From Marinobacterium litorale DSM 23545 (GTDB taxonomy: Bacteria > Pseudomonadota > Gammaproteobacteria > Pseudomonadales > Balneatricaceae): a stretch of 52,704 bases of DNA. Location: contig NZ_AUAZ01000027.1 of NCBI RefSeq assembly GCF_000428985.1, forward strand, positions 1 to 52,704, written 5' to 3'. Below the pieces are notes generated by a model. That model made no database searches, was not told the DNA's origin, and worked only from the letters and a program-made list of their open reading frames with translations. Below are positions 7,781 to 43,424 of this stretch, piece after piece. The translations under genes and the position numbers were made by a program. Every line of letters begins with the position of its first letter. Position 1 is the stretch's first letter.

Positions 7781-7972
7781 CTCCTCGAAGGCCGGACCCG
7801 CAGGTCAGGCAAGTCATTCCGGCACTGCCGGAAGGCACGTTTAGTTCTGAGGGATGGTATAGGGCGCGTGCCAGCGTATGATGTTTCCCAACGCCCCGGT
7901 AATGTCGAATTGCGACACGAAAATCGGCATCAGGACAAATCCACTTCTAAAGGAAGATAACGGGAGGTTTCA
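7781..7972. promoter_or_regulatory. Divergent glyA-sox / yghU control region with candidate GbdR site
   Basis: This gap separates the minus-strand glyA-sox operon from plus-strand yghU. An inverted repeat TGTCG-N5-CGACA lies at 7903-7917. Read in the glyA direction the right arm gives TGTCGCAATTCGACA, which shares TGTCGCAA with sites before gbcA and the BCCT gene. A weaker TGTCCTGA lies 20 bases upstream of it in the same orientation. The site is about 138 bases before the chosen glyA start. Assignment to GbdR is inference. Confidence 0.5.
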
Positions 7973-8809
7973 ATGAGTGATCCAACATACACCCCGCCAA
8001 AGATCTGGACATGGGACTCTGCCAGCGGGGGCGAGTTCGCCAGCATCAACCGGCCGGTTGCGGGCGCTACGCACGAGCACACTCTGCCCCGTGGGGATCA
8101 TCCGATTCAACTTTACTCTCTGGCAACACCAAACGGCGTCAAAGTAACCATTATGCTCGAGGAGTTGCTGGCACTTGGTCATCAGGAAGCGGAATACGAC
8201 GCCTGGCCGATCCGCATCACTGAAGGCGACCAGTTTGGTAGCGGGTTTGTGGAGATCAATCCGAACTCCAAAATCCCCGCCATGCTGGATACCAGCATTG
8301 AACCGGCACAGCGGGTGTTCGAGTCCGGCTCGATCCTGCTTTATCTGGCTGAAAAGTTCGGTGCCTTCCTGCCGGACAATCCGGCAAAGCGCACAGAAAC
8401 CCTGAACTGGCTGTTCTGGCAGATGGGCAGCGGCCCCTTCCTGGGTGGCGGTTTCGGTCATTTTTATAACTACGCGCCGGAAAAGTACGAGTACCCGATT
8501 AACCGCTTCACGATGGAGGTAAAGCGTCAGTTGGATGTACTGAACAGGCAGCTTGCTGAGTGTCGCTACGTCGCCGGCGAAGAGTACACCATTGCTGATA
8601 TGGCGATCTGGCCCTGGTATGGAGCCCTGGTACTGGGTCGGCTCTATGGTGCCGGCGAGTTTCTAAGCGTTCAGGACTACCCGCACCTGCAGCGCTGGGC
8701 CAAGGAGATCGATGAGCGCCCCGCTGTTAAACGCGGGCGCCGGGTTAACCGCACCTGGGGAGACCCATCTGAACAGCTGCCGGAGCGCCATTCTGCGTCC
8801 GACTTTTAG
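7973..8809 (+). CDS. yghU: YghU-type glutathione S-transferase (disulfide-bond reductase family)
   Basis: Cytoplasmic GST-fold protein of the YghU/nu class, which uses glutathione to reduce disulfides or organic peroxides. The 278 residues include a family-specific N-terminal extension (about 1-45), a thioredoxin-like domain (about 46-135) with LYSLATPNGVKVTIMLEEL and NPNSKIPAM, and an all-helical C-terminal domain with the DMAIWPWYG block. A GGGAGG site precedes the ATG by about 6 bases. The ABC exporter gene follows after 25 bases, so the two are probably co-transcribed. No link to betaine breakdown is evident beyond proximity. Confidence 0.9.
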   Translation: MSDPTYTPPKIWTWDSASGGEFASINRPVAGATHEHTLPRGDHPIQLYSLATPNGVKVTIMLEELLALGHQEAEYDAWPIRITEGDQFGSGFVEINPNSKIPAMLDTSIEPAQRVFESGSILLYLAEKFGAFLPDNPAKRTETLNWLFWQMGSGPFLGGGFGHFYNYAPEKYEYPINRFTMEVKRQLDVLNRQLAECRYVAGEEYTIADMAIWPWYGALVLGRLYGAGEFLSVQDYPHLQRWAKEIDERPAVKRGRRVNRTWGDPSEQLPERHSASDF

Positions 8810-8834
8810 GCTCATCAACGAGTAGGAGCGCCTC

Positions 8835-10661
8835 ATGCCCCGCGGCTCCCGTCGTGGCCATCACGGCCCGTCAACCAAACAGCCCGTTAACCTGACGGGG
8901 GCCTGGGAGGTTTTCAAAACCATCTGGCCGTACCTGTGGGAGTTTCGGGCTCGCATGGGGTTTGCCTTTATCCTGCTGGTGATGGCCAAGCTGGCGACAG
9001 TCACCATGCCCTGGGCACTGAAGCATATCGTCGATGGGCTGGATCGCACCCAGCAGCAGCTCATTGCGGTCCCTGTGCTGATGCTGGTGTTTTACGGTGT
9101 ATTGAGGTTTAGCGCCGTCTTCTTCAGTGAGGCGCGGGACGCCGTCTTTAGTCGGGTGACAGAGCGCGCCATGCGGCGGATGGTGCTACGTGTCTTCCGT
9201 CACCTGCATGCGCTCGAACTGGAGTTCCACCTGTCACGTCAGACCGGCGGTATCTCACGCGATATTGACCGGGGCGGAAACGGTTTCGGCTTCCTGATGC
9301 GAATGTTGGTATTCAACATCGTCCCCACGCTGATCGAGCTGGCGTTGGTAGCCGGGATTCTGCTGATTAACTTCAGCGCCTGGTATGCACTGATTATCCT
9401 GTTCAGCGTTGGTACCTATATCTACTTCACCGTAGTCACCACCGAGTGGCGTAACCGCTTTGTGCGCGAGATGAACCAGCTTGACTCGGCAACCAACACC
9501 CGCGCCATCGACAGCCTGCTCAACTACGAAACGGTCAAATACTTCAATAACGAAGCCTTTGAAGCCGAGCAGTATGACCAGAACCTGGCGCGCTGGGAGT
9601 CGGCCCGACTGAAAACCCGGCTCACCTTGATGCTACTAAATAGCGGCCAGGCACTGATTATCGCGGCAGGCATGGTGCTGTTGCTCTGGCTGGCCGCATC
9701 GGATGTGGTCAGCGGTGAGATGACACTGGGCTCGCTGGTGATGATCAATGCCTACATTCTTCAGCTGTTCATGCCCCTGAATTTCTTAGGCATGGTGTAT
9801 CGGGAAGTACGCCGGGCGTTAACCGACATCGAAAATATGTTTGCCCTGCTGAAAAAAAGCCCGGGCGTCAGCGACCCGCCCGGTGCACAACCGCTCAAAG
9901 TCAGCCAGGGGGCGATCGAGTTTCGTAACGTAAATTTCAGCTACCATCCGGAACGCCCCATTATTCGTGATCTCAGTTTCCGGGTAGAACCAGGCCAGAA
10001 AGTTGCCATCGTCGGGCCCAGCGGTGCAGGCAAATCCACGCTGGCTCGTCTGCTATTCCGTTTCTACGATCTGAACAGCGGCGAGATCCTGATCGATGGA
10101 CAACCGATTAGCGCGGTAACTCAGCTAAGTCTGCGCAAAGCAATCGGCGTCGTGCCCCAGGACACCGTGCTGTTTAACGACACCTTATTCAGTAACGTGG
10201 CGTATGGCAGGCCCGAGGCGGAACCCGAGGAGGTCGAAGAAGCGATTCAGATGGCCAACTTAGACGCATTTATCCGCGCATTACCCGAAGGCAACCAAAC
10301 CCGTGTGGGAGAGCGGGGACTCAAGGTTTCCGGCGGGGAAAAGCAGCGTGTCGCCATCGCCCGGGTCATTCTTAAAAGGCCCCCCATACTTCTATTCGAC
10401 GAAGCCACATCCGCGCTGGACAGCGCCACCGAACAAGCGATCCTGGGAGCCCTGAATAACCTGGCAAAGCATCATACCAGCTTGGTAATCGCTCACCGTC
10501 TCTCCACCGTGGCCGATGCCGACCAGATCCTTGTTATGGATCAGGGAGAGATCGTGGAACGCGGAACACACCTTCAGTTGCTCGCATTGAATGGCCGCTA
10601 TGCCCAGATGTGGCGGCTACAAAGGGATTATGACGAGCAACCTAAAGATGTGTCGCATTGA
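8835..10661 (+). CDS. ATM1-type ABC exporter (ABCB family half-transporter)
   Basis: Inner-membrane homodimeric exporter with a six-helix membrane domain (about 40-325) fused to an ATPase domain (about 360-600). Walker A is GPSGAGKST at 394-402; the signature VSGGEKQR and Walker B ILLFDEATSALD are intact, followed by an AHRLSTV switch histidine. The motif RAIDSLLNYETVKYFNNE (about 223-240) is characteristic of the ATM1/mitochondrial ABCB7 branch, which in bacteria exports glutathione conjugates or glutathione-metal complexes. It follows a glutathione S-transferase gene by 25 bases, fitting a glutathione-linked detoxification pair; this pairing is inference. Confidence 0.92.
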   Translation: MPRGSRRGHHGPSTKQPVNLTGAWEVFKTIWPYLWEFRARMGFAFILLVMAKLATVTMPWALKHIVDGLDRTQQQLIAVPVLMLVFYGVLRFSAVFFSEARDAVFSRVTERAMRRMVLRVFRHLHALELEFHLSRQTGGISRDIDRGGNGFGFLMRMLVFNIVPTLIELALVAGILLINFSAWYALIILFSVGTYIYFTVVTTEWRNRFVREMNQLDSATNTRAIDSLLNYETVKYFNNEAFEAEQYDQNLARWESARLKTRLTLMLLNSGQALIIAAGMVLLLWLAASDVVSGEMTLGSLVMINAYILQLFMPLNFLGMVYREVRRALTDIENMFALLKKSPGVSDPPGAQPLKVSQGAIEFRNVNFSYHPERPIIRDLSFRVEPGQKVAIVGPSGAGKSTLARLLFRFYDLNSGEILIDGQPISAVTQLSLRKAIGVVPQDTVLFNDTLFSNVAYGRPEAEPEEVEEAIQMANLDAFIRALPEGNQTRVGERGLKVSGGEKQRVAIARVILKRPPILLFDEATSALDSATEQAILGALNNLAKHHTSLVIAHRLSTVADADQILVMDQGEIVERGTHLQLLALNGRYAQMWRLQRDYDEQPKDVSH

Positions 10662-10751
10662 GTATTCTAAAAGACGCTTGAATAAATTATCGCAGCACAT
10701 CACAGACTTAAAATGCACGCATTGATCACAGATTAACCAAGGTACTACGAT

Positions 10752-10931: not shown

Positions 10932-10956
10932 GCGCTGCGAACTCGCAAAGCTCCGC

Positions 10957-12958: not shown

Positions 12959-12973
12959 TACGATGAAGCACGC

Positions 12974-19102: not shown

Positions 19103-19120
19103 TTACAAATATGAAATAAA

Positions 19121-20197
19121 ATGCCTATTCATAAGATCAGTATTGTTCCGACCTGGTCCTTTCGCGATCAGAATGGCCGCGAGCTGGACCCCCAACTGTT
19201 TATGCTTTTGCGCCAGATTGAAGCTCAGGGCAAACTGACTGCCGCGGCCAAAACGGCCGGTATCTCCTATCGGCACGCCTGGAACCAACTCAACAAATGG
19301 GCGGATTTTTTCGGTTCGCCACTGGTGGAGCTTGAAAAAGGCCGCGGCGCAAAGCTCACCCCCCTGGGCGACAAACTGCTTTGGGCTGAAAAGCGTGTCA
19401 TCGCCCGGCTGGAGCCTCAGCTCGACAACATTACCTCCGAACTCAATATAGACCTTTCTCGCTTGCTCTCCGGAGTGCGGCCGAGCCTGCGTATGCATGC
19501 CAGCCACGGCTACGCGGTCGAGCTGCTGCCTCAACATGTCCAGGATTTCGAGCTGGACCTGCAATACAAAAACGCCAGGGACGCGCTGGCTTCCCTTACC
19601 CGGGAACAATGTGACCTGGCCGGCTTTCACCTGCCGCTGGGTCAGATTGGCAGACAGATGTCCGAAACCCACTTTCGCTTTCTGAAGCCACGGGCTCATA
19701 GGATCATTCGCTTTATCACGCGCCAGCAGGGGCTGATGGTGGCACCGGGCAACCCGCTCGGTGTGAGCAACCTGCATGACCTGTTCGGTCGCGGTGTTCG
19801 GTTTATCAACAGGGAACCCAATTCGGGCACCCGCTTGCTGCTGGATGCACTGCTGGCTCAGGAGGGACTGGAAAACAGTGAACAGCTTGAGGGCGGTGGC
19901 ACGGAGTTTACTCATTCCGCTGTCGCCGCTCACGTGGCCTCGGCGATGGCCGATGCGGGGTTTGGCGTTCAGGCGGCAGCCAGCCAGTTTGGTCTGGCGT
20001 TTATCCCCTTGGCCCGGGAGCACTATCTGTTCGTCTGCCATCATCGCACCCTGGAACAGCCCGCCTGTCGCAATTTAATCGATTTACTGAGCAGCAATAC
20101 ATTTCGCGAAGCGGTGCACAAGCTACCGGGATATGACGCCGAAGCCTGTGGCAGTGTCATAACCGTTGAGGAGCTGATGGACGGTCTGCCCGGCTAA
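19121..20197 (+). CDS. fdsR: ModE/LysR-type HTH regulator with periplasmic-binding-like domain (FdsR-like)
   Basis: Predicted one-component regulator of the fds operon. The first 110 residues form a winged helix-turn-helix like that of ModE: KLTAAAKTAGISYRHAWNQLNKW followed by LVELEKGRGAKLTPLG. The remaining 240 residues resemble a substrate-binding fold, with NREPNSGTRLLLDALL and FGVQAAASQFGLAFIPL, as in proteins that bind molybdate-like or small ligands. It is divergent from fdsG across 113 bases, an arrangement matching the fdsR-fds regulator layout known from other bacteria. Whether the ligand is formate, molybdate or something else cannot be read from the sequence. Confidence 0.8.
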   Translation: MPIHKISIVPTWSFRDQNGRELDPQLFMLLRQIEAQGKLTAAAKTAGISYRHAWNQLNKWADFFGSPLVELEKGRGAKLTPLGDKLLWAEKRVIARLEPQLDNITSELNIDLSRLLSGVRPSLRMHASHGYAVELLPQHVQDFELDLQYKNARDALASLTREQCDLAGFHLPLGQIGRQMSETHFRFLKPRAHRIIRFITRQQGLMVAPGNPLGVSNLHDLFGRGVRFINREPNSGTRLLLDALLAQEGLENSEQLEGGGTEFTHSAVAAHVASAMADAGFGVQAAASQFGLAFIPLAREHYLFVCHHRTLEQPACRNLIDLLSSNTFREAVHKLPGYDAEACGSVITVEELMDGLPG

Positions 20198-20222: not shown

Positions 20223-21350
20223 TCAGTATTCGACGACCACGTCACCCTGCGGCACACTGCAGCAGGAGAGGAAGTAACCTTCCGCCACATCTTCATCGGT
20301 GATACCGCCGTTGTGGGACATTTCGATTTCACCGTCAATGCGCTTCACCTTACAGGTACCGCAGATCCCCATACCGCAGGCCTTGGGAATATGCATACCC
20401 AGCTTGGCAGCGGCTGCATGAACGGTTTCCCCCGGTGCGATACGCACGCTCTTGCCGGTCTTGGAAAACTCCACGTTGAACATATCGCTGGCTGCGATTG
20501 CATCCAGGTCTTCCGCCGCCTGCTCGGCGTCCTGAACCGCCTGCTCTTCGACGGTTTCAGGCGTCGCACCAAAGGACTCCTCGTGGTAGTGCTTCATATC
20601 GAAGCCGGCGTCTTCCAGCATGCGGCGAATCGCCTTCATGTAGGGCGTCGGGCCACAGCAGAACACCTCACGCTCCATGAAATCCGGAGCGATCATATCG
20701 AGCTTGATCCGATCCAGAAAACCACGGTAACCCGACCAGGTCTGACCCGGTTCTACCTTCTCGCAGATCAGGTGGAGATCAAAGTTACCGATGCGTGAAG
20801 AGATCGTCTCCAGCTCGCGCTGATAGATAATGTCCTTTGGCGTGCGTGCACTGTGTACGAACACCATATCGATATCCGCGTTGGTGTCGAACGCCCAGCG
20901 GGTCATCGACATGACCGGCGTGATACCCACACCGCCCGAGAGGAACAGTACCTTCTGGGATGGGAAATCGATGCTGTTGAACGCCCCGACCGGACCGTGA
21001 ACCGCCAGCTCGGTGCCTTCCACCATATTATCGTGCAGCCAGTTGGACACCAGACCACCCGGCACCCGCTTCACGGTAATGGAGAAACTGTAAGGCACGG
21101 ATGGCGAGCTCGAGATGGTATAGGAGCGGAAGATCTGCTCACCCTCAATCTCCAGCTCCAGAGTCACAAACTGCCCTGGCTTGAAGAAGAACATGACCGG
21201 CTGCTCAGCCATGAAGCAGTAGGTGTTTACATCCCAGGTTTCCTGAATGACCTTGACACAGCGAACCGCATGGCGGCCGTTGCTCCAGGTCTGGGTTGTA
21301 ACCGGTATGAACGCATCTGCATTGACGATCGATACACTCGGGTTGTTCAT
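20223..21350 (-). CDS. gbcB: Glycine betaine monooxygenase reductase subunit GbcB
   Basis: Flavin/iron-sulphur reductase passing electrons from NAD(P)H to the Rieske oxygenase GbcA, which demethylates glycine betaine to dimethylglycine and formaldehyde. The 375 residues contain an FAD domain with RSYT at 75-78, a nucleotide-binding domain with GGVGITPV at 139-146 and CGPTPYM at 232-238, an acidic Ala/Glu/Asp linker (about 262-288), and a C-terminal plant-type [2Fe-2S] domain with Cys325, Cys330, Cys333 and Cys363. It is divergent from gbcA, while in Pseudomonas the two genes are neighbours on the chromosome. Its 3' end converges on the formate regulator with only 25 bases between. Confidence 0.92.
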   Translation of the reverse strand: MNNPSVSIVNADAFIPVTTQTWSNGRHAVRCVKVIQETWDVNTYCFMAEQPVMFFFKPGQFVTLELEIEGEQIFRSYTISSSPSVPYSFSITVKRVPGGLVSNWLHDNMVEGTELAVHGPVGAFNSIDFPSQKVLFLSGGVGITPVMSMTRWAFDTNADIDMVFVHSARTPKDIIYQRELETISSRIGNFDLHLICEKVEPGQTWSGYRGFLDRIKLDMIAPDFMEREVFCCGPTPYMKAIRRMLEDAGFDMKHYHEESFGATPETVEEQAVQDAEQAAEDLDAIAASDMFNVEFSKTGKSVRIAPGETVHAAAAKLGMHIPKACGMGICGTCKVKRIDGEIEMSHNGGITDEDVAEGYFLSCCSVPQGDVVVEY

Positions 21351-21668
21351 GGCGTTGACATCCTGAAACGGGTGTTGGGTTCACCCCTCTTTAGGGGGTT
21401 GCGTTGTGGAGGCCATTTTCTGAGCAACACCTCTGAACCACTTATTCCTGAGCGACGCGAAATTGTCTCAAAACAACCAAATGGGCCTTTTCGCTACCCC
21501 CCCTGTCTTAAACAGAATTGATTCATGTCGCGAACAGAATATTGCCCCTACAAACTCAGGGGCAGCATTGCCCGCAAGACACCACCCCATGGTCTCAGCA
21601 GACGCGAGCGGGGTATCGGGTCGGTTAAGCGAAGCCCCTTAAAAGGGCACACACCCACTTGCAATGAG
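21351..21668. promoter_or_regulatory. gbcB-gbcA divergent control region with candidate GbdR sites
   Basis: Two direct repeats point toward gbcA: TGTCTTAAACAGAAT at 21504-21518 and TGTCGCGAACAGAAT at 21526-21540. They are 22 bases apart start to start, about two helical turns, a spacing usual for AraC-family activators. A minus-oriented CGTCGC at 21452-21457 faces gbcB. The gbcA leader holds a perfect 7-bp hairpin (TGCCCCT, 21543-21549; AGGGGCA, 21558-21564). No gene is evident in this gap; an in-frame upward extension of gbcA to 21525 lacks family similarity. Confidence 0.6.
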
Positions 21669-26833: not shown

Positions 26834-28435
26834 TCAGTGCAGGTGCACTTCGGACTTCAGCCCGCGATACAGACTCAGACACATCAGAATCAGGACGACG
26901 GTGAACGGCAGCCCGGTAGTCACGGCACCGGCCTGCAGTGCGACCAGCGCATCGGAGCCGCCGCCCACAAGCAGGGTTCCAGCGATGATGCCCACCAGAG
27001 TCGCCCAGAACAGGCGCTGCGGCATGGGCGCATCGGTTTTTCCGCCGGCAGTGATGCTGTCGATAACCAGAGAACCGGAGTCAGACGAGGTGATGAAGAA
27101 AACCAACACCAGCACGATACCCACGATGGACAGCAAACCGGTCATGGGCAGGTTCTCAAACATCTGGAACATCGCCTGTGACACATCACCGATACCGTTG
27201 GCCAGCGCACCGACGCCATTTGAAGCCTGCTCAATCGCGGTACCACCCATTACACTCATCCACAGCACGGTCACCAGTGTCGGGATCAGCAGCACGGCAG
27301 TGATGAACTCACGCACAGTACGCCCTTTGGATACACGCGCGATGAACATGCCGACAAACGGTGACCAGGAGATCCACCATGCCCAGTAGAAGACAGTCCA
27401 GCCGTGGAACCAGGTAGTATCTTCACGATCGATCCAGCCGGAGAGCGCAACCACATTACCTGCGTAGCTGCTGACCACAGTGCCCATGGTCTTGAAAATC
27501 GCCAGCGTCGGGCCGACCACGATAATCACGGCAATCAGGGCTGCGGCGATAATCATGTTGATGTTGCTAAGCAGTTTGACGCCGCCGTCCAGACCGCGAG
27601 CGACGGAGAACAGGGCAACACCGGTAACGATAATGATCACCGCGACCTGCGTGGAGAGGTCATTGGCGATACCGAAAAGGTAGTTCAGACCACCTGCAGC
27701 CTGCTGGGCACCCAGGCCCAGCGACGTAGCCAGACCAAAGATCGTGGCAAGAACCGCCAGAATGTCGATCAGGTGACCGATCGGGCCCCAGGTGTGACGT
27801 CCCAGCAGCGGATAGAAAGCGGAACGGATGGTCAGCGGCAGGCCCTTGTTGTAGGCAAAGAACGCCAGCGCCAGCGCTACCACGCCATAAATTGCCCAGG
27901 GATGAAGCCCCCAATGGAACATAGTGGCACCCAGGGCCATTGAGGCACCCTCGGGGGTGTTGGCCGGTGCGTTCAGCGGTGTACCGTACCAGTTGGTGTA
28001 GTAAGCCACCGGCTCAGCCACACTCCAGAACATCAGCCCAATACCCATACCCGCAGCAAAAAGCATGGAGAACCAGGAGAGCGTAGAGAATTCGGGCTTG
28101 GCGTTAACGCCACCCAGACGCACACGACCCACCGGCAGGAAAATCAATGCCAGACAGAAAACAACAAACAGGTTACAGCCGATCATAAACAGCCAGTCAA
28201 AATTCTCGATTGACCAGCCGCGTGCGCCTGTCAGCGCCTCCTTTGCACCGCTCGGGAACAGAAGCGTTGCAATAATGAACATCAGTATCAGACCAGCACT
28301 GATACCAAATACCGGGTTATGCACATCAAGCCCCATGAGCTTGACGTTGTCCTGACCGACTTGGTAGTCGGTGTCGTATGCAGCAGTTATCGCTATCGCT
28401 TCCGCTCTAGCTCCCTGTTGATTCACACCTTTCAT
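26834..28435 (-). CDS. BCCT-family betaine/carnitine/choline transporter
   Basis: Secondary carrier for quaternary ammonium compounds, 533 residues with about 12 membrane helices. The glycine stretch is GMGIG at 129-133, the pattern of sodium-coupled members such as BetP, followed by FWSVAEP. The conserved aromatic box is in HGWTVFYWAWWISWSPF (Trp346, Phe349, Tyr350, Trp351, Trp353, Trp354, Trp357). The short C-terminal tail lacks a long regulatory extension. AAGGAG precedes the ATG. Its place in a betaine catabolic region and the shared upstream motif indicate uptake of betaine as nutrient. Choline or dimethylglycine remain possible. Confidence 0.93.
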   Translation of the reverse strand: MKGVNQQGARAEAIAITAAYDTDYQVGQDNVKLMGLDVHNPVFGISAGLILMFIIATLLFPSGAKEALTGARGWSIENFDWLFMIGCNLFVVFCLALIFLPVGRVRLGGVNAKPEFSTLSWFSMLFAAGMGIGLMFWSVAEPVAYYTNWYGTPLNAPANTPEGASMALGATMFHWGLHPWAIYGVVALALAFFAYNKGLPLTIRSAFYPLLGRHTWGPIGHLIDILAVLATIFGLATSLGLGAQQAAGGLNYLFGIANDLSTQVAVIIIVTGVALFSVARGLDGGVKLLSNINMIIAAALIAVIIVVGPTLAIFKTMGTVVSSYAGNVVALSGWIDREDTTWFHGWTVFYWAWWISWSPFVGMFIARVSKGRTVREFITAVLLIPTLVTVLWMSVMGGTAIEQASNGVGALANGIGDVSQAMFQMFENLPMTGLLSIVGIVLVLVFFITSSDSGSLVIDSITAGGKTDAPMPQRLFWATLVGIIAGTLLVGGGSDALVALQAGAVTTGLPFTVVLILMCLSLYRGLKSEVHLH

Positions 28436-29005
28436 GAAGCTCTCCTTCGGACTGTCTTATCGCGCGGAACCTATTCCGTCACGGATATTCTTTCTTTTTA
28501 TTTTGTGCAGTCTCGGGGTGGTGCTGATCAAAATGACCGCAGAAAGCGAGAGGAACTTTCCGTCCGAAAATTCGGACCGGCCACACCCGGCTGCCAAGCC
28601 TCATCCATACTACGAATGCGTGAATTAACTGTTGTCCCCTTAGCGACAGCCAACTGGTGGAATAGCTACTTATTGCGACATGGCGTGAACCACTTATCTG
28701 TTTGCGACACGTTAAAAACCGTCAGCGAGCGATAAAACGGGATTGTCACAGATCTGGAGTAGCGCACTCGAAAATACGCATAAAAACCAAGTCAAAAACC
28801 TGACCGCCGGGTCGGGAAGCCGGATTTTACGGGCACTCGGCGATCTTCAAGCAGTGAATTTCATGCCAAGACGCAGGAAGGGTTTAGCTGCATCCACTGG
28901 ATGGCTAAAGCGCTTGGCGACTGGTGTGGCCAGCCAAAGTGAAGCCAGGTTTGGCGCCGCATATAGTCGACAGCGTCATGCCAAAACAGCGCTATTTCAA
29001 CGCTT
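28436..29005. promoter_or_regulatory. BCCT upstream region with three TGTCGC sites
   Basis: This 570-base gap holds no convincing gene. On the minus strand, in the BCCT direction, three copies of TGTCGC occur: TGTCGCAAACAGAT at 28696-28709, TGTCGCAATAAGTA at 28667-28680 and TGTCGCTAAGG at 28638-28648, spaced 29 and 32 bases. The first is nearly identical to the gbcA site. Short frames here (for example 28434-28628 and 28743-29045, both plus) lack ribosome sites or recognisable domains. Confidence 0.55.
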
Positions 29006-33495: not shown

Positions 33496-33742
33496 ACAAG
33501 GATTAGAACCGTGAATGCTCCGGGGGTGCACCGGAGACTTGAGGTAAAACCGATATCAGAGGGTAAACCGATACCAGCAACTTGCAGGGGATATATTCCG
33601 CAATCGGCGCACAGAGGTGAGGCTGTCTGGCTTCAGTTGGAATATGTGTCCATTGTCTACTGAACAAACGTCTAACACCTGTTCATGATCGAACCGCGCA
33701 TTGCCATAAACGACACGGTTGAAACGAGTTTCCATCGCCCAC

Positions 33743-34596: not shown

Positions 34597-35827
34597 GTTC
34601 AATCTCCCCCTGACGATAAGCCTTAGCCAGACGAATCAGCTCCTGGAGCACATCACCACTATCGGCAATCACACTGAGTGCGGCACGTTTGACCATGTCA
34701 CATCCCACATCGGTATTGATGGCGATAACCTTGTCGCACTGACCAATACCCTGCAGATGCTGGATCGCACCGGAGATACCCACCGCCACGTACACGCGTG
34801 CGGTCACCCAGGTACCGGTCGCACCGACCTGACGGAAACGCGGCATGTAGCCATCGTCCACCGCCACACGGCTGGCACCTTCGGTAGCCCCCAGCAGCTC
34901 GGCTGCCTGGTGGAACTGATCCCAATCCTTCACGCCGTTACCGGCAGAGAGAATGAACTCAGCTTCACCCAGCGGAATCGCATTCGGGTCAACAGCCACC
35001 TGGCCGCAATCGGCAATCTGGACACGGGCTTCAACAGCACCTTCCAGCGCCACCGGCAGGACTTCATGACGGGTTTCGTCGATGGGCTCTGCACACTCTT
35101 CAGCCAGTAGAACAAGACGCGGGGTCTCACGGGTGATATCCAGCGTACCGCCCGCCCCACGGCAGATACTCTGCTGAGCATCCACCTGCCAGGCCTGTGT
35201 TGCCGGACGCTCGCCAATGCGAGCCCCCAGGCGACAGCCCAACTCAAACCCGGCGGCAACACTGTCGGGCAGCAGCCAGTGACGCGGGGCAAACTCTTTT
35301 TCAACCTGCGCCAGCGCCGCCACACGACGCTCCGGCGAGTAGCCCTCGTATTCATCACCATCAAGGTGCAGCAGGCGATCAACGCCCGCTTTATCAAAGG
35401 CCTCTTCGCGATACTCACCGAAGACAACCGCCATCACCGCGCCGGCACCGCCAATTTCGCGGATCAGTTTGTGGGCCTGGCCGAGCACATCACGGTCATG
35501 ACCGCTCAAACGGCCACCGACCATATCGGGCACCACGGCGATGTAGTAATCCGGGTTATCCACCTTATGCAGCGGCAGCACCACCTCTTTGGCACCGGAA
35601 GCGGAACGGCGACCACCGAGGCTTGCCAGACCGTTGCCGTTCATCCGGTCAATGCGCTTGATGCCGTTAGGACCTATAAAACCAACCGCATGCGGGTTAC
35701 GACGGATCAGGCCAGATGGACCGCGAACCTCTGCGGCTGCGGACTGCATGGAGTCATGCAGCGGATGCAGACGGTTGCGTGCGATCCATTCCGCCCGCGG
35801 GTCGCGGCGAATAATATCTTCGCTCAT
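34586..35827 (-). CDS. etfA: Electron transfer flavoprotein alpha subunit, dimethylglycine-linked
   Basis: EtfA-family subunit of 413 residues, longer than housekeeping EtfA (about 310) through an N-terminal extension (about 1-95) rich in Arg and His. The C-terminal FAD-binding domain has VGATGTWVTARVYVAVGISGAIQHLQGI and the VIAINTD block, where FAD phosphates bind. It overlaps the dgcB stop by 4 bases (ATGA). The Pseudomonas dgcAB operon also carries such a pair just downstream; passing electrons between DgcA/DgcB and the quinone pool is inferred. Confidence 0.88.
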   Translation of the reverse strand: MSEDIIRRDPRAEWIARNRLHPLHDSMQSAAAEVRGPSGLIRRNPHAVGFIGPNGIKRIDRMNGNGLASLGGRRSASGAKEVVLPLHKVDNPDYYIAVVPDMVGGRLSGHDRDVLGQAHKLIREIGGAGAVMAVVFGEYREEAFDKAGVDRLLHLDGDEYEGYSPERRVAALAQVEKEFAPRHWLLPDSVAAGFELGCRLGARIGERPATQAWQVDAQQSICRGAGGTLDITRETPRLVLLAEECAEPIDETRHEVLPVALEGAVEARVQIADCGQVAVDPNAIPLGEAEFILSAGNGVKDWDQFHQAAELLGATEGASRVAVDDGYMPRFRQVGATGTWVTARVYVAVGISGAIQHLQGIGQCDKVIAINTDVGCDMVKRAALSVIADSGDVLQELIRLAKAYRQGEIEHAA

Positions 35828-37806
35828 ACAGCCACCTCCCCAGCCTGCTTCTGTTTCGCAGCAGACTTGTTAGCACTCTGCTTACCGGATACCGGCGCGT
35901 CATCCTCGATCAACGCATCGGCCACCAGCTCGGCGATATCCTTCACTTCGGCACGGGGCTCCACCACGCCTTCCAGCATCGCGGTACACTGCTGACAGCC
36001 TACTGCGACCAGCTCGGCGCCCACTTCCTTGATTTCGGCCATACGCATATCGGCGATACGGCGCTCACCCGGAATATCGGTGATCGGAGCACCACCACCC
36101 CCACCGCAGCAGCGGGAGCGGAAACCGGAGCGTTCCATTTCGGCCAGTTTGATCCCCAGCTCACCGAGCAGCTCACGCGGCGAGTCATATTCACCGTTGT
36201 AGCGACCCAGGTAGCAGGGGTCGTGATAGGTCACGGTACCGCCCTTGAACTCTTCCAGATTCAACAGACCCGCTTTAACCAGCTCGTTGATGAACGTGGT
36301 GTGGTGCAGAACGTCGTAGTCCGGCTTCTGACCGGCCGGATACAGCTCCGGATACTCGTTCTTCAGGCAGTGGAAGGCGTGCGGGTCAGTCGTCACGATA
36401 CGGTTGAACTTGTACTGACTGAGCGCCGCGATATTACGCTTGGCCAGGCTCTGGAAGGTGGCATCATCACCCAGACGACGGGCCACGTCGCCGGAGTCGC
36501 GCTCTTCATCGCCCAGCACTGCAAAGTCGACGTTTGCTGCTTTCAGTACTTTCACGAAGGCACGCAGAATACGTTGGCTACGCATGTCAAAGGCACCGTC
36601 GGACACCCAAAACACCACGTCCACTTCTTTCACGTCTTTAAGCACACGCAGATTCTGATCCGCCGCCCAGTTCATGCGGCTGCCCGGATTGAAACCGTTG
36701 GGGTTATCGGTGGCGATCAGGTTATCCAGCACTTCAGCGCCTTTGTTCGGGGTATTACCCTTCTCCAGCGTCAGGAAGCGGCGCATATCGACGATGGCGT
36801 CCACGTGCTCGATCATCATCGGGCACTCTTCCACACAGGCGCGGCAGGTGGTGCAGGACCAGAGTGTATCCGGGCTGACCAGACCTTCGGTGATGGTTTT
36901 GTTCGGGCCGCCTTCAGCCTTGCCGACTTCGATACCCGGGTAAGGGCTGCCGGCGAACTTGGCATCGGAGCCACCGGCCAGACCAACCACCATATCCTGG
37001 ATCAGTTTTTTCGGGTTCAGCGGCTGACCGGCTGCAAACGCCGGACACATCGCTTCACACTTACCGCACTGAACGCAGGCGTCGAAACCCAGCAGCTGAT
37101 TCCATTTAAAGTCAGTGGGCTTTTCCACACCCAGCTTGGACGCAGTCAGATCCACAGCCTTGAGGCCGGTGGAGCGACCACCCCCAAAACGCTCGGGACG
37201 ACGGTGAAAGGCCAGGTGCAGGGAACCGGCAAAGGCGTGCTTCATCGGACCGCCCCAGCCCATGCCGAACACCAGCTCACCCAGCCCCCAAACGATACCG
37301 GCAGCCAGCACCACAGCCAGCACCCAGCCTCCAAAGTTTTCAGGCAGGATACCGGCGGCGGGCAGGGTCGCGATAAAGAAGCTGACAGCAAACATCAGCA
37401 GGCTCTTGGGCAGACGCATCCAAGGGCCCTTTGACAGGCGCGACGGCGGGTTAAGACGACGCTTGAATACGAACAGCGCACCGACAAACATCAGCACCAG
37501 AGCGCCCAGCAGGGCATAGCTGAGCCAGCGGCTTTCAACACCGAACAGGTGCACCGCGAGGATCAGCACCATCGACAGCACGAAGCCACCGGCAGTCGCC
37601 ACGTGAGTCTTGGACATATACTTATCGCGCTCAACCACATGGTGCAGATCCACCAGGTAGCGACGCGGCATCGCCATCAGTCCGGAGAAGAGATTAACCT
37701 TTTCCGGCTGACCGGCACGCCAGAGACTGATCCGCTTGAGCATACCGGCCACAGCCAGCAGCAGCGCAACAGAGAGAAGAACGGGGAGTAACCAATCGAG
37801 GATCAT
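35824..37806 (-). CDS. dgcB: Dimethylglycine demethylation iron-sulphur membrane protein DgcB
   Basis: Needed with DgcA for dimethylglycine breakdown in Pseudomonas. The 660 residues have about five N-terminal membrane helices (within 1-185), two [4Fe-4S] motifs (Cys244, 247, 250, 254 and Cys318, 321, 324, 328), and two C-terminal cysteine-rich CCG-type domains, one with CCGGGGGAP and one with GCQQCTAML. This layout resembles heterodisulfide reductase D or glycerol dehydrogenase C subunits and fits electron transfer to the membrane quinone. It follows dgcA after 186 bases that hold an inverted repeat, and overlaps etfA. Confidence 0.92.
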   Translation of the reverse strand: MILDWLLPVLLSVALLLAVAGMLKRISLWRAGQPEKVNLFSGLMAMPRRYLVDLHHVVERDKYMSKTHVATAGGFVLSMVLILAVHLFGVESRWLSYALLGALVLMFVGALFVFKRRLNPPSRLSKGPWMRLPKSLLMFAVSFFIATLPAAGILPENFGGWVLAVVLAAGIVWGLGELVFGMGWGGPMKHAFAGSLHLAFHRRPERFGGGRSTGLKAVDLTASKLGVEKPTDFKWNQLLGFDACVQCGKCEAMCPAFAAGQPLNPKKLIQDMVVGLAGGSDAKFAGSPYPGIEVGKAEGGPNKTITEGLVSPDTLWSCTTCRACVEECPMMIEHVDAIVDMRRFLTLEKGNTPNKGAEVLDNLIATDNPNGFNPGSRMNWAADQNLRVLKDVKEVDVVFWVSDGAFDMRSQRILRAFVKVLKAANVDFAVLGDEERDSGDVARRLGDDATFQSLAKRNIAALSQYKFNRIVTTDPHAFHCLKNEYPELYPAGQKPDYDVLHHTTFINELVKAGLLNLEEFKGGTVTYHDPCYLGRYNGEYDSPRELLGELGIKLAEMERSGFRSRCCGGGGGAPITDIPGERRIADMRMAEIKEVGAELVAVGCQQCTAMLEGVVEPRAEVKDIAELVADALIEDDAPVSGKQSANKSAAKQKQAGEVAV

Positions 37807-37992: not shown

Positions 37993-40068
37993 TTACAGAT
38001 CCTTGCAGAGTCGCAGTGCGTCGTAGATCGCCGCATGTGTGTTGCGCTGGGACACACAGTCCCCCAGACGCCACAGGATCATGCCGTCGCCAGATTCGGA
38101 TAGCTCTTCACCAAGAATGGGCTGAGGCTTGATATCGAACAGTGCTTCAACGTCGATCTGACCCTTGTTGCGCGACTCACCCTTGAGTTCGTAGTACAGC
38201 GCTTCGTTGGGACGAATACCGTTCTCGACCACGATCTGATCGACAACACGCTCTTCCTGCTGACCGGTGTACTCGTTTTCCAGCAGCGCAACCAGCTTGT
38301 CACCTTCGCGGTATACCTTCTCCAGCATCAGGTCGGAGGTCATGATCACCTCCTTCTCATACAGGCTGCGGTAGTAGGTCGGGAAGGTGGTACCACCGAT
38401 GCCGACACCCGGCTTGATATCGTCGGTAACCAGCTCGACCATGGACCCTTTGGAGGCCAGGTAGTCAGCCGCGGACATCCCGGAGAATTCACAGATGGTG
38501 TCGTAGATCAGGACGTTTTTGCCCGGTTCGACTTTGCCGCTGAGAATGTCCCAGCTGGATACAACCAGACCTTCCTCGGCACCCCAGTGCGGGTTCTGCT
38601 CCAGGAACGGCGTACCGCCGGTTGCCAGGATGCAGACATCCGGCTTGAGGTCACGGATCATGTCAGCGCTGGCTTCGGTACCCAAACGGATATCAACGCC
38701 CAGACGCTCAAGCTCCATTACCATCCAGCGGGTGATACCGGCCATCTGATCACGCTGCGGTGCTTTAGCGGCGATGGTGATCTGACCACCCAGTTCTTCA
38801 GCCTTCTCAACCAGGGTTACGTTGTGTCCACGTTCAGCAGCAACGCGGGCCGCTTCCATACCACCGGGGCCACCACCCACAACAACGACCTTGCGCACAG
38901 GGCCAGTCGTCTTCTCAATGATGTGCGGCAGACCCATGTATTCACGGGACGTCGCCGCGTTCTGGATGCAGAGTACGTCCAGACCCATGTACTGACGGTC
39001 GATACAGTAGTTGGCGCCCACGCACTGACGAATCTGGTCAACCTGATCCATCTTGATCTTGGCAATGAAGTGCGGGTCAGCGATATGTGCACGGGTCATA
39101 CCGACAAAGTCGACATAACCGGCTTCCAGGATACGCTTGGCCTGGTTCGGATCCTTGATGTTCTGCGCGTGGATAACCGGTACGGAAACCACTTCCTTGA
39201 TACCCGCCGCCAGGTGCAGGAACGGCTCCGGCGGGTAGCTCATGTTCGGGATGACGTTGGCCAGGGTGTTGTGGGTATCACAACCGGAGCCAACCACACC
39301 GAAGTAATCGATCAGGCCGGTCGCGTCGTAGTACGCCGCGATCTGCTTCATATCTTCGTGGTTCAGACCATCCGGATGGAACTCATCACCGGTGATACGC
39401 ATGCCGACGACAAAGTCTGGGCCCACCGCTTCACGCACGGCTTTGGCGACTTCCAGACCGAAACGCATACGGTTTTCAAAGCTGCCGCCCCACTGGTCGG
39501 TACGCTTGTTAACACGCGGAGACCAGAACTGGTCGACCATATGCTGGTGCACGGCAGAGAGTTCAACACCGTCGAGGCCGCCCTCTTTCGCACGCACGGC
39601 CGCTTTCGCGAAGTCGCCGATAACGCGCCAGATCTCTTCCTCTTCGATGGTCTTACAGGTCGCACGGTGTACCGGCTCACGAATACCTGAAGGAGACATC
39701 AGATTGGGCCAGTTCTCACCGTCCCAGCGGGAACGGCGCCCCATGTGGGTAATCTGAATCATGATCTTGCCGCCGTGCTTGTGCACAGCATCGGCAAGAT
39801 TCTGAAAATGGGGGATGATACGGTCGGTGGACAGGTTTACCGAGCTCCACCAGCTTTGTGGGCTGTCGATCGACACCACACTGGAACCGCCGCAGATACA
39901 GAGGCCACAGCCGCCCTTGGCCTTCTCTTCATAATACTTGACGTAACGATCGGTGGTCATACCGCCATCGGTGGCATACACCTCGGCATGAGCGGTACTG
40001 ACGATACGGTTACGGATGGTCAGCTTGTTGATGTTCAACGGCTGGAACAGTGCATCGAACTGCGACAT
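37993..40068 (-). CDS. dgcA: Dimethylglycine demethylase flavoprotein DgcA
   Basis: Old-yellow-enzyme/trimethylamine-dehydrogenase-type flavoprotein that demethylates dimethylglycine to sarcosine. The 691 residues include an N-terminal FMN-binding TIM barrel (about 1-340), a four-cysteine iron-sulphur motif region (CVGANYC...C, about 344-366) and a C-terminal FAD/NAD-binding half with VVVVGGGPGGMEAARVAAERG. Ribosome site GGGGTGA precedes the ATG. It follows DUF5943 gene by 76 bases on the same strand, and dgcB is downstream. Confidence 0.93.
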   Translation of the reverse strand: MSQFDALFQPLNINKLTIRNRIVSTAHAEVYATDGGMTTDRYVKYYEEKAKGGCGLCICGGSSVVSIDSPQSWWSSVNLSTDRIIPHFQNLADAVHKHGGKIMIQITHMGRRSRWDGENWPNLMSPSGIREPVHRATCKTIEEEEIWRVIGDFAKAAVRAKEGGLDGVELSAVHQHMVDQFWSPRVNKRTDQWGGSFENRMRFGLEVAKAVREAVGPDFVVGMRITGDEFHPDGLNHEDMKQIAAYYDATGLIDYFGVVGSGCDTHNTLANVIPNMSYPPEPFLHLAAGIKEVVSVPVIHAQNIKDPNQAKRILEAGYVDFVGMTRAHIADPHFIAKIKMDQVDQIRQCVGANYCIDRQYMGLDVLCIQNAATSREYMGLPHIIEKTTGPVRKVVVVGGGPGGMEAARVAAERGHNVTLVEKAEELGGQITIAAKAPQRDQMAGITRWMVMELERLGVDIRLGTEASADMIRDLKPDVCILATGGTPFLEQNPHWGAEEGLVVSSWDILSGKVEPGKNVLIYDTICEFSGMSAADYLASKGSMVELVTDDIKPGVGIGGTTFPTYYRSLYEKEVIMTSDLMLEKVYREGDKLVALLENEYTGQQEERVVDQIVVENGIRPNEALYYELKGESRNKGQIDVEALFDIKPQPILGEELSESGDGMILWRLGDCVSQRNTHAAIYDALRLCKDL

Positions 40069-40144
40069 GGTTCACCCCAACTTTTCTAAGGGCCTGCACC
40101 GGCTCTCGACGGCGCAGGTTTTTGTACTCTTTTGTTTTACTCGA

Positions 40145-40678: not shown

Positions 40679-40757
40679 TACTTCAAACTCCAACTAAAAG
40701 TATTTGTCTCTGTTAATAACCGCGTTGAAACGTCATGAGCGCCGCAGCCTCTGATCG

Positions 40758-41735
40758 TTATTCGCCCCAGACGTCTGCCAGGACCCGAACCCAGTTCTCA
40801 CCCATGATTTTGCGTACCTGGGTTTCGGTGAAACCACGACGCAGCAGTGCTTCGGTCAGGTTCGGGAACTCACCCAGAGTACGGATACCTTCCGGGTTCA
40901 CGATCTTGCCGAACTGGGTCAGACGACGGGCGTAGCCCTTGTCGTGGGTCAGCCACTCGAAGAACGGCTGGCCATGTCCCTGAGTGAAGTCGGTACCGAT
41001 ACCGATCTGATCTTCACCAACGATATTGAAGACATACTCGATCGCCTCAACGTAATCTTCGATGGTGGAGTTGATGCCGTTCTTGAGGAAGGGCGCGAAC
41101 ATGGTGACGCCGACGAAACCGCCGTGATCGGCGATGAACTTCAGCTCTTCATCGGACTTGTTGCGCGGATGCTCTTTCAGCCCGGAGGGCAGGCAGTGGG
41201 AGTAGCAGACCGGTTTTTTGGACTCGAGAATAACCTCTTCAGAGGTTTTCGCGCCGACGTGAGACAGGTCGCACATAACGCCGACACGGTTCATCTCAGC
41301 CACGATCTCACGGCCGAAACCGGACAGACCACCGTCCCGCTCGTAGCAGCCGGTACCGATCAGGTTCTGGGTGTTGTAGCACATCTGTACCACGCCCACG
41401 CCCAGATCCTTAAAGGTCTGCACGTAACCGATCTGGTCTTCGAACGCATGGGCGTTCTGGAAGCCCATGATGATACCGGTCTTACCTTCTGCCTTGGCGC
41501 GACGGATATCGTCGGTGGTGCGTACTTTCAGCACCAGGTCAGAGTTCTGCTCGATCAGGCCATTCATTTCAACGATGTTGTTGACCGTAGCCTGGAAGCC
41601 TTCCCACACCGACACGGTGCAGTTTGCAGCCGTCAGACCACCACGGCTCATGTCTTCGAAAAGCTCACGATCCCACTTTGCGATCACAAGACCATCGATC
41701 ACGATGGCATCTTTGTGCAGTTCTGCTGCGCTCAT
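40758..41735 (-). CDS. M19 dipeptidase-like protein with altered metal site, first gene of the dgc operon
   Basis: Resembles renal-dipeptidase (M19) amidohydrolases, 325 residues, but the metal site is depleted. The usual N-terminal DGHxD reads D14-G-L-V-I (no His, no Asp). The usual metal-ligand Glu in an EGGHA-type motif is Gln93 in FQNAHAF. His159 (DLSHVG) and His180 (YSHCLPSG) remain, as does RN after them. It can therefore hardly be a normal di-zinc dipeptidase. It is the first gene of the dimethylglycine operon, as in Pseudomonas PA5396, so a role in methylamine metabolism is probable; its chemistry is unknown. Located 79 bases before the DUF5943 gene. Confidence 0.82.
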   Translation of the reverse strand: MSAAELHKDAIVIDGLVIAKWDRELFEDMSRGGLTAANCTVSVWEGFQATVNNIVEMNGLIEQNSDLVLKVRTTDDIRRAKAEGKTGIIMGFQNAHAFEDQIGYVQTFKDLGVGVVQMCYNTQNLIGTGCYERDGGLSGFGREIVAEMNRVGVMCDLSHVGAKTSEEVILESKKPVCYSHCLPSGLKEHPRNKSDEELKFIADHGGFVGVTMFAPFLKNGINSTIEDYVEAIEYVFNIVGEDQIGIGTDFTQGHGQPFFEWLTHDKGYARRLTQFGKIVNPEGIRTLGEFPNLTEALLRRGFTETQVRKIMGENWVRVLADVWGE

Positions 41736-41840
41736 TTTTCCACCTATTCAACGGGTGCTTTCAGTAGCGCTCAGAATAGGGGGAAAGATCACGGGGAATT
41801 GTTCTGAAAGCGTCACTCGACTGGCGTAAAGCGTAGTGAT

Positions 41841-41850
41841 TCGCGACGTC
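41841..41850 (-). promoter_or_regulatory. Candidate GbdR site before the dgc operon
   Basis: On the minus strand GACGTCGCGA (41841-41850) contains CGTCGCGA, one base from the TGTCGCGA of the gbcA site and in the same orientation relative to its gene. It lies about 110 bases before the M19-like start. The match is weaker than at gbcA or the BCCT gene. Confidence 0.4.
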
Positions 41851-41919
41851 AAAAAAGGTTTTCCACAGCCGGCAGGATTTAGTCACGGTAGAGCAGAAAA
41901 AGACCGGATCCTATAACGC

Positions 41920-41954
41920 AAAAAACCGCCGCTACCTCTGGGTAACGGCGGTTT
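41920..41954 (-). terminator. Rho-independent terminator of gbdR
   Basis: AAACCGCCG (41923-41931) pairs with CGGCGGTTT (41946-41954), with an inner TACC/GGTA stem. A run of T follows on the minus strand (A run at 41920-41925). It lies about 20 bases after the gbdR stop. Confidence 0.85.
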
Positions 41955-41974
41955 CGAAAGACCTTTAAACCCGC

Positions 41975-43117
41975 TTACTGAAGGGTTACGGATCCGTAAG
42001 TCGGCTCAAACTGCGCTTCGCTCAGTGCGCGCATCGCCAGCTCGCTGGAGCGACGCTCGCCCTTCTGGTTGAGCCCCGGCAAAGCTGTCGTTACCAGCGG
42101 TGTCAGCGTCTGTGTCCGCTCCTGACTACGCATGCCACTGCGCTCTTCACGTGGCGGAATACCGATATGTTCGCGGTAGCATTTGCTGAAGTGCGGTGTG
42201 GAGACAAAGCCACAGGCCGCCGCGATCTCGATGATCGACATGGAGGTCTGCTTAAGCAGCTGACGCGCACGGAACAGGCGCAGCTTCAGGTAGTACTTCG
42301 ACGGTGAGCACTGCAGATACTTCTGGAACAGACGCTCCAGCTGACGGCGCGAAAGCCCCACATACCCGGCCAGCTCATCCAGCTCGATCGCTTCCTCAAT
42401 GTTGGATTCCATCAAAGAAACCGCTTCAACCAGTTTGGGCTGAGTGGTACCCAGTACATGACGCAGCGGAATACGCTGGTAATCGGATTCATTACGAACG
42501 CGATCACAGATAAACATCTCGGAGATACCGGCAGTCAGCTGGTAACCGAAGTCACGGCGGATCATGTTCAGCATCATGTCCATCGGTACGGTGCCGCCGC
42601 TGCTGGTCATACGGTCACGATCGATCACGAACAGGTGATTGGTGCAGTTAACCTTGGGGTAAGCTTCCTGCAGAGACGCGATACACTCCCAGTGCGCACT
42701 GCAGTCATAGCCGTTCAGCAGGCCCGCTTCTGCCAACAGGTAGGGACCTGTACAAACACCACCAATCAGGATGTGCTTGCGCGCCATCGCCTGTAGCCAG
42801 GAGACCTGACGGCGGGTAAAGCTACGTGTGATGTTAACACCGCCGACAACGATCAGTGTGTCCAACTCGGGAGACTCGGTCATTGAGCTATCCGGTGTGA
42901 TCCGGATACCGTCACTGGCCATAACCGCTTCACCGTCTTCGGTGAGGGTGTGCCAGTTATAGAGCTCCTGCCCGCTTAGCTGATTCGCCATACGCAACGG
43001 CTCCACCGCCGACGCCAAAGCGATCATGGTGAAGTTGTTCAGCAACAGAAAACCGATGCTGCGGGTTTTGTTCTTTGCAGTTGAGCCCTGAAAAGAAGAA
43101 GAGTTGTTCTCAGACAT
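41975..43117 (-). CDS. gbdR: GlxA-family regulator GbdR of glycine betaine catabolism
   Basis: AraC-type activator that in Pseudomonas responds to glycine betaine and dimethylglycine and switches on gbc, dgc and sox genes. The 380 residues have an N-terminal DJ-1/PfpI-like sensor domain (about 18-215: IGFLLLNNFTMIALASAVEPLRMAN, GGVCTGPYLLAEAGLL) and a C-terminal double HTH of AraC type (about 235-330: LDELAGYVGLSRRQLERLFQKYL and SIIEIAAACGFVSTPHFSKCYREHIGIPP). An unusual 45-residue tail rich in Arg, Ser and Thr follows the HTH. It lies downstream of a serine dehydratase gene, as gbdR does next to sdaB in Pseudomonas. Confidence 0.92.
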   Translation of the reverse strand: MSENNSSSFQGSTAKNKTRSIGFLLLNNFTMIALASAVEPLRMANQLSGQELYNWHTLTEDGEAVMASDGIRITPDSSMTESPELDTLIVVGGVNITRSFTRRQVSWLQAMARKHILIGGVCTGPYLLAEAGLLNGYDCSAHWECIASLQEAYPKVNCTNHLFVIDRDRMTSSGGTVPMDMMLNMIRRDFGYQLTAGISEMFICDRVRNESDYQRIPLRHVLGTTQPKLVEAVSLMESNIEEAIELDELAGYVGLSRRQLERLFQKYLQCSPSKYYLKLRLFRARQLLKQTSMSIIEIAAACGFVSTPHFSKCYREHIGIPPREERSGMRSQERTQTLTPLVTTALPGLNQKGERRSSELAMRALSEAQFEPTYGSVTLQ

Positions 43118-43424
43118 TTTACGCTAACCCCATGTTTACCTATTGGGGCACTAGCAACCGCTGTGCCTTTTATATTTATATTTGGTCGTATCTGAGTCGG
43201 CGTGTCGCAAATAGATATGCGGATGCCGGGTTAGACCCAATTAGCTCCAAATCACGCGAAAAGCAGCTCTCACGGGCACTACAGACATGCGCACTATAGT
43301 TGAATCTGTATTAAAAGCGACCCCCCTGATGTCGTTTTTTGCACCTTTTTTTTACACAAACGGTCCAAATGAGGGCGCCTCATCTGGACCATTTGATCAG
43401 GTATTTTGAAATAAAACTGTATAA
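43118..43424. promoter_or_regulatory. sdaA-gbdR gap: motif and hairpin
   Basis: TGTCGCAAATAGAT lies at 43203-43216 on the plus strand, about 90 bases before gbdR and in reverse orientation to it. The motif is close to the gbcA and BCCT sites, so GbdR may control its own gene. Near the sdaA end, GGTCCAAATGAGG (43362-43374) and CCTCATCTGGACC (43378-43390) form a 13-bp hairpin with one G-T pair and a 3-base loop, a possible 3' end for sdaA transcripts, though no good T run follows. Confidence 0.5.

Follow-up and report, generated by a model that had tools for sequence, protein, structure and literature searches.

A conserved TGTCGC word as the predicted GbdR half-site of a betaine gene cluster in Marinobacterium litorale

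Which protein reads the TGTCGC-type word that recurs before betaine-related genes of Marinobacterium litorale DSM 23545, and what does this word do where it stands reversed, before gbdR itself? Both questions are raised by a stretch of 52,704 nucleotides (hereafter the window), which is contig 26 of a genome of 4.38 Mb in 64 contigs. A first-pass annotation had placed TGTCGC(A/G)A before five promoters, those of gbcA, a BCCT transporter gene, gbdR, glyA and the dgc operon, and had read it as the half-site of the AraC-type regulator GbdR, with possible autoregulation at gbdR. From sequence comparison, we consider it highly probable that the shared word forms the half-sites of operators bound by GbdR. 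The conserved word most likely lets GbdR switch on the genes of glycine betaine breakdown together, and the reversed word probably lets GbdR control itself. As a prediction, the choice of GbdR agrees with the targets, which are of the GbdR type, with similar paired sites in 8/8 Pseudomonas genomes, and with the presence of one GbdR over the family cut-off (NCBIfam NF052371, 606 bits against a cut-off of 480), the sole such protein in the genome.

The shared word in this and other genomes

Two motifs were learned from other genomes, one (set 1) by expectation maximisation on 31 gbcA/gbcB intergenic regions with no consensus supplied, and one (set 2) from gbdR upstream regions, 72 of 80 being used after eight near-duplicate loci were dropped. 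The window's own copy was removed from both sets; both include close relatives, which leaves them independent of the window itself though tied to its lineage. Set 1 yielded TGTCGC.AAtAG.tAAat with a log-likelihood of 278.7, versus 63-77 for three shuffled sets. Its top seven matches in the window lay before BCCT at 28692 (24.0), gbcA at 21526 (21.5), gbdR at 43203 (19.6), again near BCCT at 28631 (12.1), at 33698 (11.4), and before glyA at 7900 (11.2) and dgc at 41798 (10.7). Only the match at 33698, which sits between convergent genes, is not at a betaine promoter. Set 2 yielded tGtCGc.atcAGgca, with BCCT (20.7), dgc at 41798 (17.3), gbdR (17.2) and gbcA (14.1) as the top four and glyA in seventh place (11.0). 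The two learned motifs are the same word and match both one another and the sites of the window. When 397 kb of the same genome were scored as background, the set 1 motif reached 20.4 once and 15.9-17 three times, with about 12 matches at or above approximately 11.5 (1.6 per window length); the set 2 motif reached 17.3 once and gave eight matches of at least 14.7. In a scan with an earlier version of the set 1 motif, 13/14 of the best background matches fell inside open frames of at least 100 codons.

The strings listed by the first-pass annotation were present at gbcA (21526-21540, plus strand), BCCT (28696-28709, minus), gbdR (43203-43216, plus) and glyA (7903-7917, minus), and the fifth, at dgc, was one base off. 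The motif follows the direction of transcription everywhere except at gbdR, where it is reversed, as had been described. The shared motif is real as a longer word; the 8-mer alone is weak, as is its dgc example. TGTCGCRA occurred nine times in the window versus 5.1 expected, a count reached by 7/100 shuffles; nine is high against the rate in the whole genome (193 in 4.38 Mb; Poisson P 0.0005), in which the backward form is commoner still (457). We rejected the plain 8-mer as carrier of the claim because it is too common. Two further TGTCGCAA words lie at 20066-20073 (plus strand), between gbcB and the gene at 19103-20044, and at 4961-4968 (minus strand), between soxB and soxA.

In a genome-wide motif search, as the first-pass annotation had proposed, the 13-mer TGTCGCRAAYAGA had exactly three matches, all in the window, before gbcA, BCCT and gbdR, and none backward. 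This rarity is partly circular, because the 13-mer was built from these same sites. With one mismatch allowed, ten further places appeared versus 16 for the backward control, which makes those places background. Across eight genomes of the genus Marinobacterium, seven of the nine places of the 13-mer preceded gbcA, BCCT or gbdR, and the backward control had three. A wider 16-mer, TGTCGCNNNYRGRHAA, was discarded, with three matches in the genome (one of them at BCCT) versus four for its backward control. Chance similarity among common GC-rich words would fit the shuffled 8-mer counts and the 13-mer with up to three mismatches, which stood at chance level in the window (40 seen versus 38 expected). 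Against it stand the motifs learned from other genomes, the conserved islands and the genome-wide placement; learned motifs, conservation and placement refute a chance origin for the gbcA, BCCT, gbdR and main dgc sites, and for the shared word as a whole we regard chance as very improbable.

Placement was also followed through 60 genomes of the family, where TGTCGCRAAYAGNTAA occupied 15 places and its backward form none. Ten of these fell in the gbcB-gbcA gap, two upstream of BCCT and three elsewhere. It was present in 10/35 genomes that encode a GbdR over the cut-off versus 1/25 that do not (Fisher P 0.02). One of the three remaining places is in G048 (locus L165), where TGTCGCAAACAGGTAA stands before a distant DddP-like M24 gene, a relative of the dimethylsulfoniopropionate (DMSP) lyase DddP (302 bits, cut-off 600), divergent from a LysR-like frame.

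Direct repeats before the betaine genes

The genes concerned are as follows; the names dgcA and dgcB are presumably right, being taken from family and gene order as known in Pseudomonas.

1837-4857, minus strand: soxA
5169-6422, minus strand: soxB
6509-7780, minus strand: glyA
20223-21350, minus strand: gbcB
from about 21681, plus strand: gbcA
26834-28435, minus strand: BCCT transporter
35824-37806, minus strand: dgcB
37993-40068, minus strand: dgcA
40758-41735, minus strand: M19 dipeptidase
41975-43117, minus strand: gbdR, AraC-type regulator and proposed binder of the sites
43425-44897, minus strand: L-serine ammonia-lyase (sda)

The window's GbdR is 89-92% identical to that of M. lutimaris, M. 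mangrovicola, M. lacunae, M. ramblicola and M. zhoushanense. Enterobacterial loci (L005, recorded as Serratia rubidaea, and L008-L012, Pluralibacter and Pantoea) share much of the betaine cluster, and their GbdR, at 74-83% identity, is closer to the window's than that of Halomonadaceae; horizontal transfer is likely.

The window sites proved to be direct repeats, mostly TGNCGC-N15-NGNCGN. Around 152 distinct anchors, CG recurred at offsets -21 (29), +21 (33) and -22 (24), where the mean over offsets beyond 8 was 9.3 (s.d. 6.4). Individual promoters have additional CG peaks, such as +32 at gbcA/gbcB and +41 at gbdR, and all of these figures are inflated by related sequences. Two CG half-sites in direct repeat at about 21 bp, the arrangement of a GbdR-type operator, were found with an N15 spacer at BCCT, glyA, gbdR and dgc and with N16 at gbcA. 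The first-pass site list was very probably right in the word itself; it had missed these direct repeats, a site at gbcB, two of the BCCT sites and the promoter of gbdR described below. The predicted operators and promoter-like elements are listed here, those of gbdR in the next section.

7891-7917, minus strand: glyA-sox site, TGTCGCAATTCGACATTA (7900-7917) with partner GGGCGT (7891-7896), N15
21440-21457, minus strand: gbcB site CGTCGCTCAGGAATAAGT, 86 bp from the gbcA site
21504-21543, plus strand: predicted gbcA operator, TGTCTT (21504-21509)-N16-TGTCGC (21526-21531) within TGTCGCGAACAGAATATT
21564-21569, plus strand: gbcA -10-like AGCATT
28607-28612, minus strand: BCCT -10-like TAGTAT
28631-28648, minus strand: BCCT near site TGTCGCTAAGGGGACAAC, closest to the promoter
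28663-28680, minus strand: BCCT middle site TGTCGCAATAAG
28683-28709, minus strand: BCCT far site, TGTCGCAAACAGATAAGT (28692-28709) with partner TCACGC (28683-28688), N15
41773-41778, minus strand: dgc -10-like TATTCT
41798-41836, minus strand: predicted main dgc operator, CTACGC (41831-41836)-N15-TGACGC (41810-41815) within TGACGCTTTCAGAACAAT (41798-41815)
41841-41848, minus strand: first-pass dgc string CGTCGCGA, earlier given as 41842-41849

Conservation followed this architecture. At gbcA, NGTCTY-N16-TGTCGY was kept in 6/6 aligned genus members, the distal half lacking CG in this genus. The gbcB site retained its core GCGAC and AATTGTCT in 6/6, and its distance from the gbcA site was 86 bp in 4/4 Marinobacterium and 2/2 Halomonadaceae loci, 83 bp in 8/8 Pseudomonas, 84 bp in Amphritea and 107 bp in Vibrio. 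In the eight Pseudomonas genomes (P. aeruginosa not among them), the paired sites between gbcB and gbcA scored 20.1-21.8 on the gbcB side and 7.5 on the gbcA side. BCCT has three sites, with TGTCGC kept in 4/4 aligned genomes at each; the one reported earlier is the farthest. Its repeat, TGTCGC-N15-TNNCGC, was conserved in 4/4, as were CGCCATGTCGCAAT at the middle site and the near TGTCGC together with the -10 block.

For the dgc operon, the string named in the first-pass annotation turned out to be weak and not the main site. It scored -0.9 (set 1) and 1.9 (set 2) versus 10.7 and 17.3 for TGACGCTTTCAGAACAAT, which lies 33 bp nearer the gene and is better conserved, and we rejected it in favor of the latter. 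NNNCGC-N15-TGNCGY and AGAACAAT were kept in 10/10 aligned genomes, and among 59 loci looked at, the partner CG at -21 was kept in all 20 that have the main core. GTCGC at the first-pass offset was found in 9/20 of these (five Marinobacterium, the window included, and four Vibrio/Vibrionaceae) and was not found in the other 11, including M. lutimaris and M. mangrovicola; being kept in 9/20 only, CGTCGCGA may be an accessory half-site at most.

The glyA site is a variant sub-type. TGTCGC-N15-NGRCGT was conserved in 7/7 aligned genomes, as was TGTCGCAAATCGACATT with single changes, in which CGACAT replaces AGATAA; the site is also an inverted repeat, TGTCG-N5-CGACA. We are less sure of glyA as a GbdR site than of the others.

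Several results weigh against assigning these sites to GbdR. By set 1 score, the weaker sites at glyA, dgc and near BCCT (10.7-12.1) are unexceptional given the background rate, and they rest on conservation. The gbcA site ranks below eight background matches with the set 2 motif, the gbcB site scores just 2.9 and the middle BCCT site 0.8, 3/15 of the TGTCGCRAAYAGNTAA places in the family precede unrelated genes, and the relatives used for comparison do not represent independent lineages. Moreover, the genome encodes a second full-length GbdR relative (265 bits, 37% identity) on contig 1. This paralogue (in the region L124:9402-16002) adjoins a creatininase gene and a second BCCT gene, and may govern creatinine or creatine use.

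Another protein of the GATase1-AraC type, such as this paralogue, which could be SouR-, CdhR- or ArgR-like and respond to sarcosine, creatine or arginine, might therefore bind some of the sites, above all that at glyA, which is consistently unlike the others. GbdR, CdhR, SouR and ArgR are reported to have very similar sites (PMC5806209), and the P. aeruginosa sox genes are stated to require SouR too (PMC12093977). The neighbourhood of the paralogue held no strong match, however (best 8.6, earlier motif version), and the placement of the sites follows betaine genes. Nor do the strong sites match the ARG box, TGTCGCN6GNAA (PMC10963909): it wants G at position 13, where gbcA, BCCT and gbdR all carry A (G in 0/3), and AA at 15-16 occurs at BCCT alone, although the G is less conserved according to the source. 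We consider such a binder unlikely overall; the paralogue could share sites, most plausibly glyA, and conceivably owns them all, a reading that we set aside.

With GbdR as the preferred binder, the AraC-type activator would respond to glycine betaine or dimethylglycine, by analogy with the inducers named in PMC12093977, and would occupy TGNCGC-like half-sites in direct repeat, spaced 21-22 bp or roughly two helical turns. Each site upstream of gbcA, gbcB, BCCT, the dgc operon or, with less certainty, glyA-sox is oriented toward its gene. The -10-like elements at gbcA, dgc and BCCT start 36-38 bp after the last TGNCGC, a spacing that would place GbdR next to sigma70 RNA polymerase, which it could recruit. 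Here we infer the protein that binds, its inducer and the sign of each effect; sequence, conservation, spacing and promoter-like elements are observed.

The reversed site and the sigma54-type promoter of gbdR

Upstream of gbdR, the site stands about 35 bp before a sigma54-type promoter.

43153-43168, minus strand: sigma54-type promoter of gbdR AGGCACAGCGGTTGCT, AGGCAC-N5-TTGCT
43203-43229, plus strand (reversed relative to gbdR): gbdR site TGTCGCAAATAGATATGC (43203-43220) with partner TGCCGG (43224-43229), N15

The reversed repeat, TGTCGC-N15-NGNCGG, was kept in 6/6 aligned genomes. Within 250 bp of gbdR in 80 relatives, the set 1 motif was reversed in 28, forward in 3 and below threshold in 49, against a background expectation of 0.016 per region. 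By group, reversed and forward matches numbered 18 and 0 of 25 in Halomonadaceae, 3 and 0 of 12 in Marinobacterium, 3 and 0 of 6 in Vibrio, 3 and 1 of 22 in other Oceanospirillaceae, 1 and 2 of 6 in enterobacteria, and 0 and 0 of 9 in Pseudomonas. In the gbdR alignment TGTCGC is retained by M. lutimaris and M. mangrovicola, whose scores fall below the threshold.

The sigma54 consensus is TGGCACN5TTGCW, with GG-N10-GC at its core. The gbdR element has 10/11 of its letters and was kept in 6/6 aligned genomes; the 397-kb background held 86 places at 9 or more and seven at 10, and no other betaine promoter in the window scores above 7. On the gbdR strand, elements of at least 9 were present in 10/13 Marinobacterium (window included), 6/6 enterobacteria, 5/6 Vibrio and 1/21 other Oceanospirillaceae loci (21 of 22 scanned), and none was found in the 16 of 25 Halomonadaceae loci scanned or, within 300 bp, in 9 Pseudomonas. 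Halomonadaceae thus keep reversed sites with no detectable sigma54 promoter, and the Pseudomonas loci have no site. TATAAATAT had suggested a sigma70 promoter for gbdR; this reading was dropped because the sigma54-type element scores better.

The suggestion of autoregulation stands in outline, since the reversed site recurs across genera; the sigma54-type promoter alters how it would work. Autoregulation of gbdR through the reversed site, perhaps as repression, is plausible given the position of the site just upstream of this promoter, and this placement makes tuning more likely than the usual activation. Bound about 35 bp upstream, GbdR would lie between promoter and enhancer and could hinder or help the loop; we lean weakly to hindrance. 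A tentative possibility, which we think somewhat improbable as a whole, is that in Marinobacterium and Vibrio GbdR on the reversed repeat hinders the loop between the sigma54 promoter and its enhancer and so exerts negative feedback on betaine catabolism; we rate it no higher because two relatives have a divergent fdhA gene and the Pseudomonas loci lack the sigma54-type element. If it is true, one AraC-type protein activates sigma70 genes and restrains its own sigma54 gene, and the orientation of the site marks the difference.

In those two relatives (L007 and L014), fdhA (glutathione-independent formaldehyde dehydrogenase; TIGR02819, 754-756 bits) lies divergent about 400 bp upstream of gbdR, and TGTCGCAACCAG sites (TGTCGC) point at it, 276-286 bp before gbdR, so that fdhA is likely a further target there. 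The reversed site might accordingly serve, or remain from, a divergent gene, with no role in autoregulation. No such gene is present in the window, where, as in five close Marinobacterium, the upstream gene sda is on the strand of gbdR and yet the reversed site is invariant; in L061, L065 and L076 of the Halomonadaceae, the longest frame upstream likewise has the direction of gbdR. We therefore hold this explanation to be improbable, and prefer control of gbdR by its own product.

Further elements accompany the site in some loci. Conserved blocks at about 43280-43345 upstream of gbdR in six Marinobacterium, comprising GRTGCARAAAACG, GGTCGC and CTATAGT, are possibly an enhancer or second operator region. 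Six Halomonadaceae loci (for example L060, L061, L065 and L076) have a second reversed TGTCGC site 105-107 bp further upstream, the gap is 66 bp in L048 and L050, and in L067 the second site takes the form TGTCGC-N15-TGTCGC; paired distant sites recall looping in AraC-type systems. In Pluralibacter (L008 and L012), GbdR-type sites in forward orientation are placed downstream of the sigma54-type element, 55-58 bp ahead of the gbdR match; a protein bound at this position could block transcription.

Relation to known systems

The present map takes the GbdR operator, described in Pseudomonas, into the betaine cluster of Marinobacterium with exact coordinates, and it corrects one site and adds others. 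For specialists the interest lies in the reversed gbdR site, recurrent among relatives and here next to a sigma54-type promoter; the rest is an ordinary, well-supported regulon. Glycine betaine is an abundant marine osmolyte, so that with the operators mapped it becomes possible to test directly how the cell switches between retaining and burning it.

The primary paper on the P. aeruginosa GbdR regulon is reportedly that of Hampel et al. 2014. PMC12093977 states that in Pseudomonas GbdR is required for gbcA, gbcB, dgcAB and soxBDAG. The window resembles the P. aeruginosa regulon, as these sources describe it, in its NCBIfam equivalog regulator, its targets gbcA, gbcB, dgc and sox, and its CG direct-repeat half-sites; it differs from Pseudomonas in having BCCT inside the cluster with three sites, an N16 spacer at gbcA, and a reversed site at gbdR (0/9 Pseudomonas). 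The CdhR operator of P. aeruginosa, GGTCGC-N15-GGTCGC, shares the direct repeat and the 15-bp spacer, and GbdR sites are said to be very similar, a changed CG abolishing GbdR binding (PMC5806209); unlike GbdR, CdhR governs carnitine catabolism. The ARG box of the AraC-type ArgR of Pseudomonas also starts with TGTCGC and occurs as tandem boxes about 21 bp apart (PMC10963909), whereas the window sites carry YAGA and A at position 13 and stand at betaine genes, so that an ARG box is the less likely identity.

For the regulator gene itself, no title or abstract in the GbdR literature covered, which leaves most subscription papers outside, describes a GbdR site at gbdR. P. aeruginosa gbdR has a sigma54 promoter under NtrC/CbrB, IHF and BetI, according to the title of Sanchez et al. 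2017 as cited in PMC13415123. The window is alike in its sigma54-type element; that title names no GbdR, whereas a GbdR-type site stands just upstream here. The lack of a sigma54-type element in the nine Pseudomonas loci speaks against a simple shared element, and a shared origin is unproven. On this reading, the GbdR regulon extends to a new genus, and the wiring of the regulator gene may differ there.

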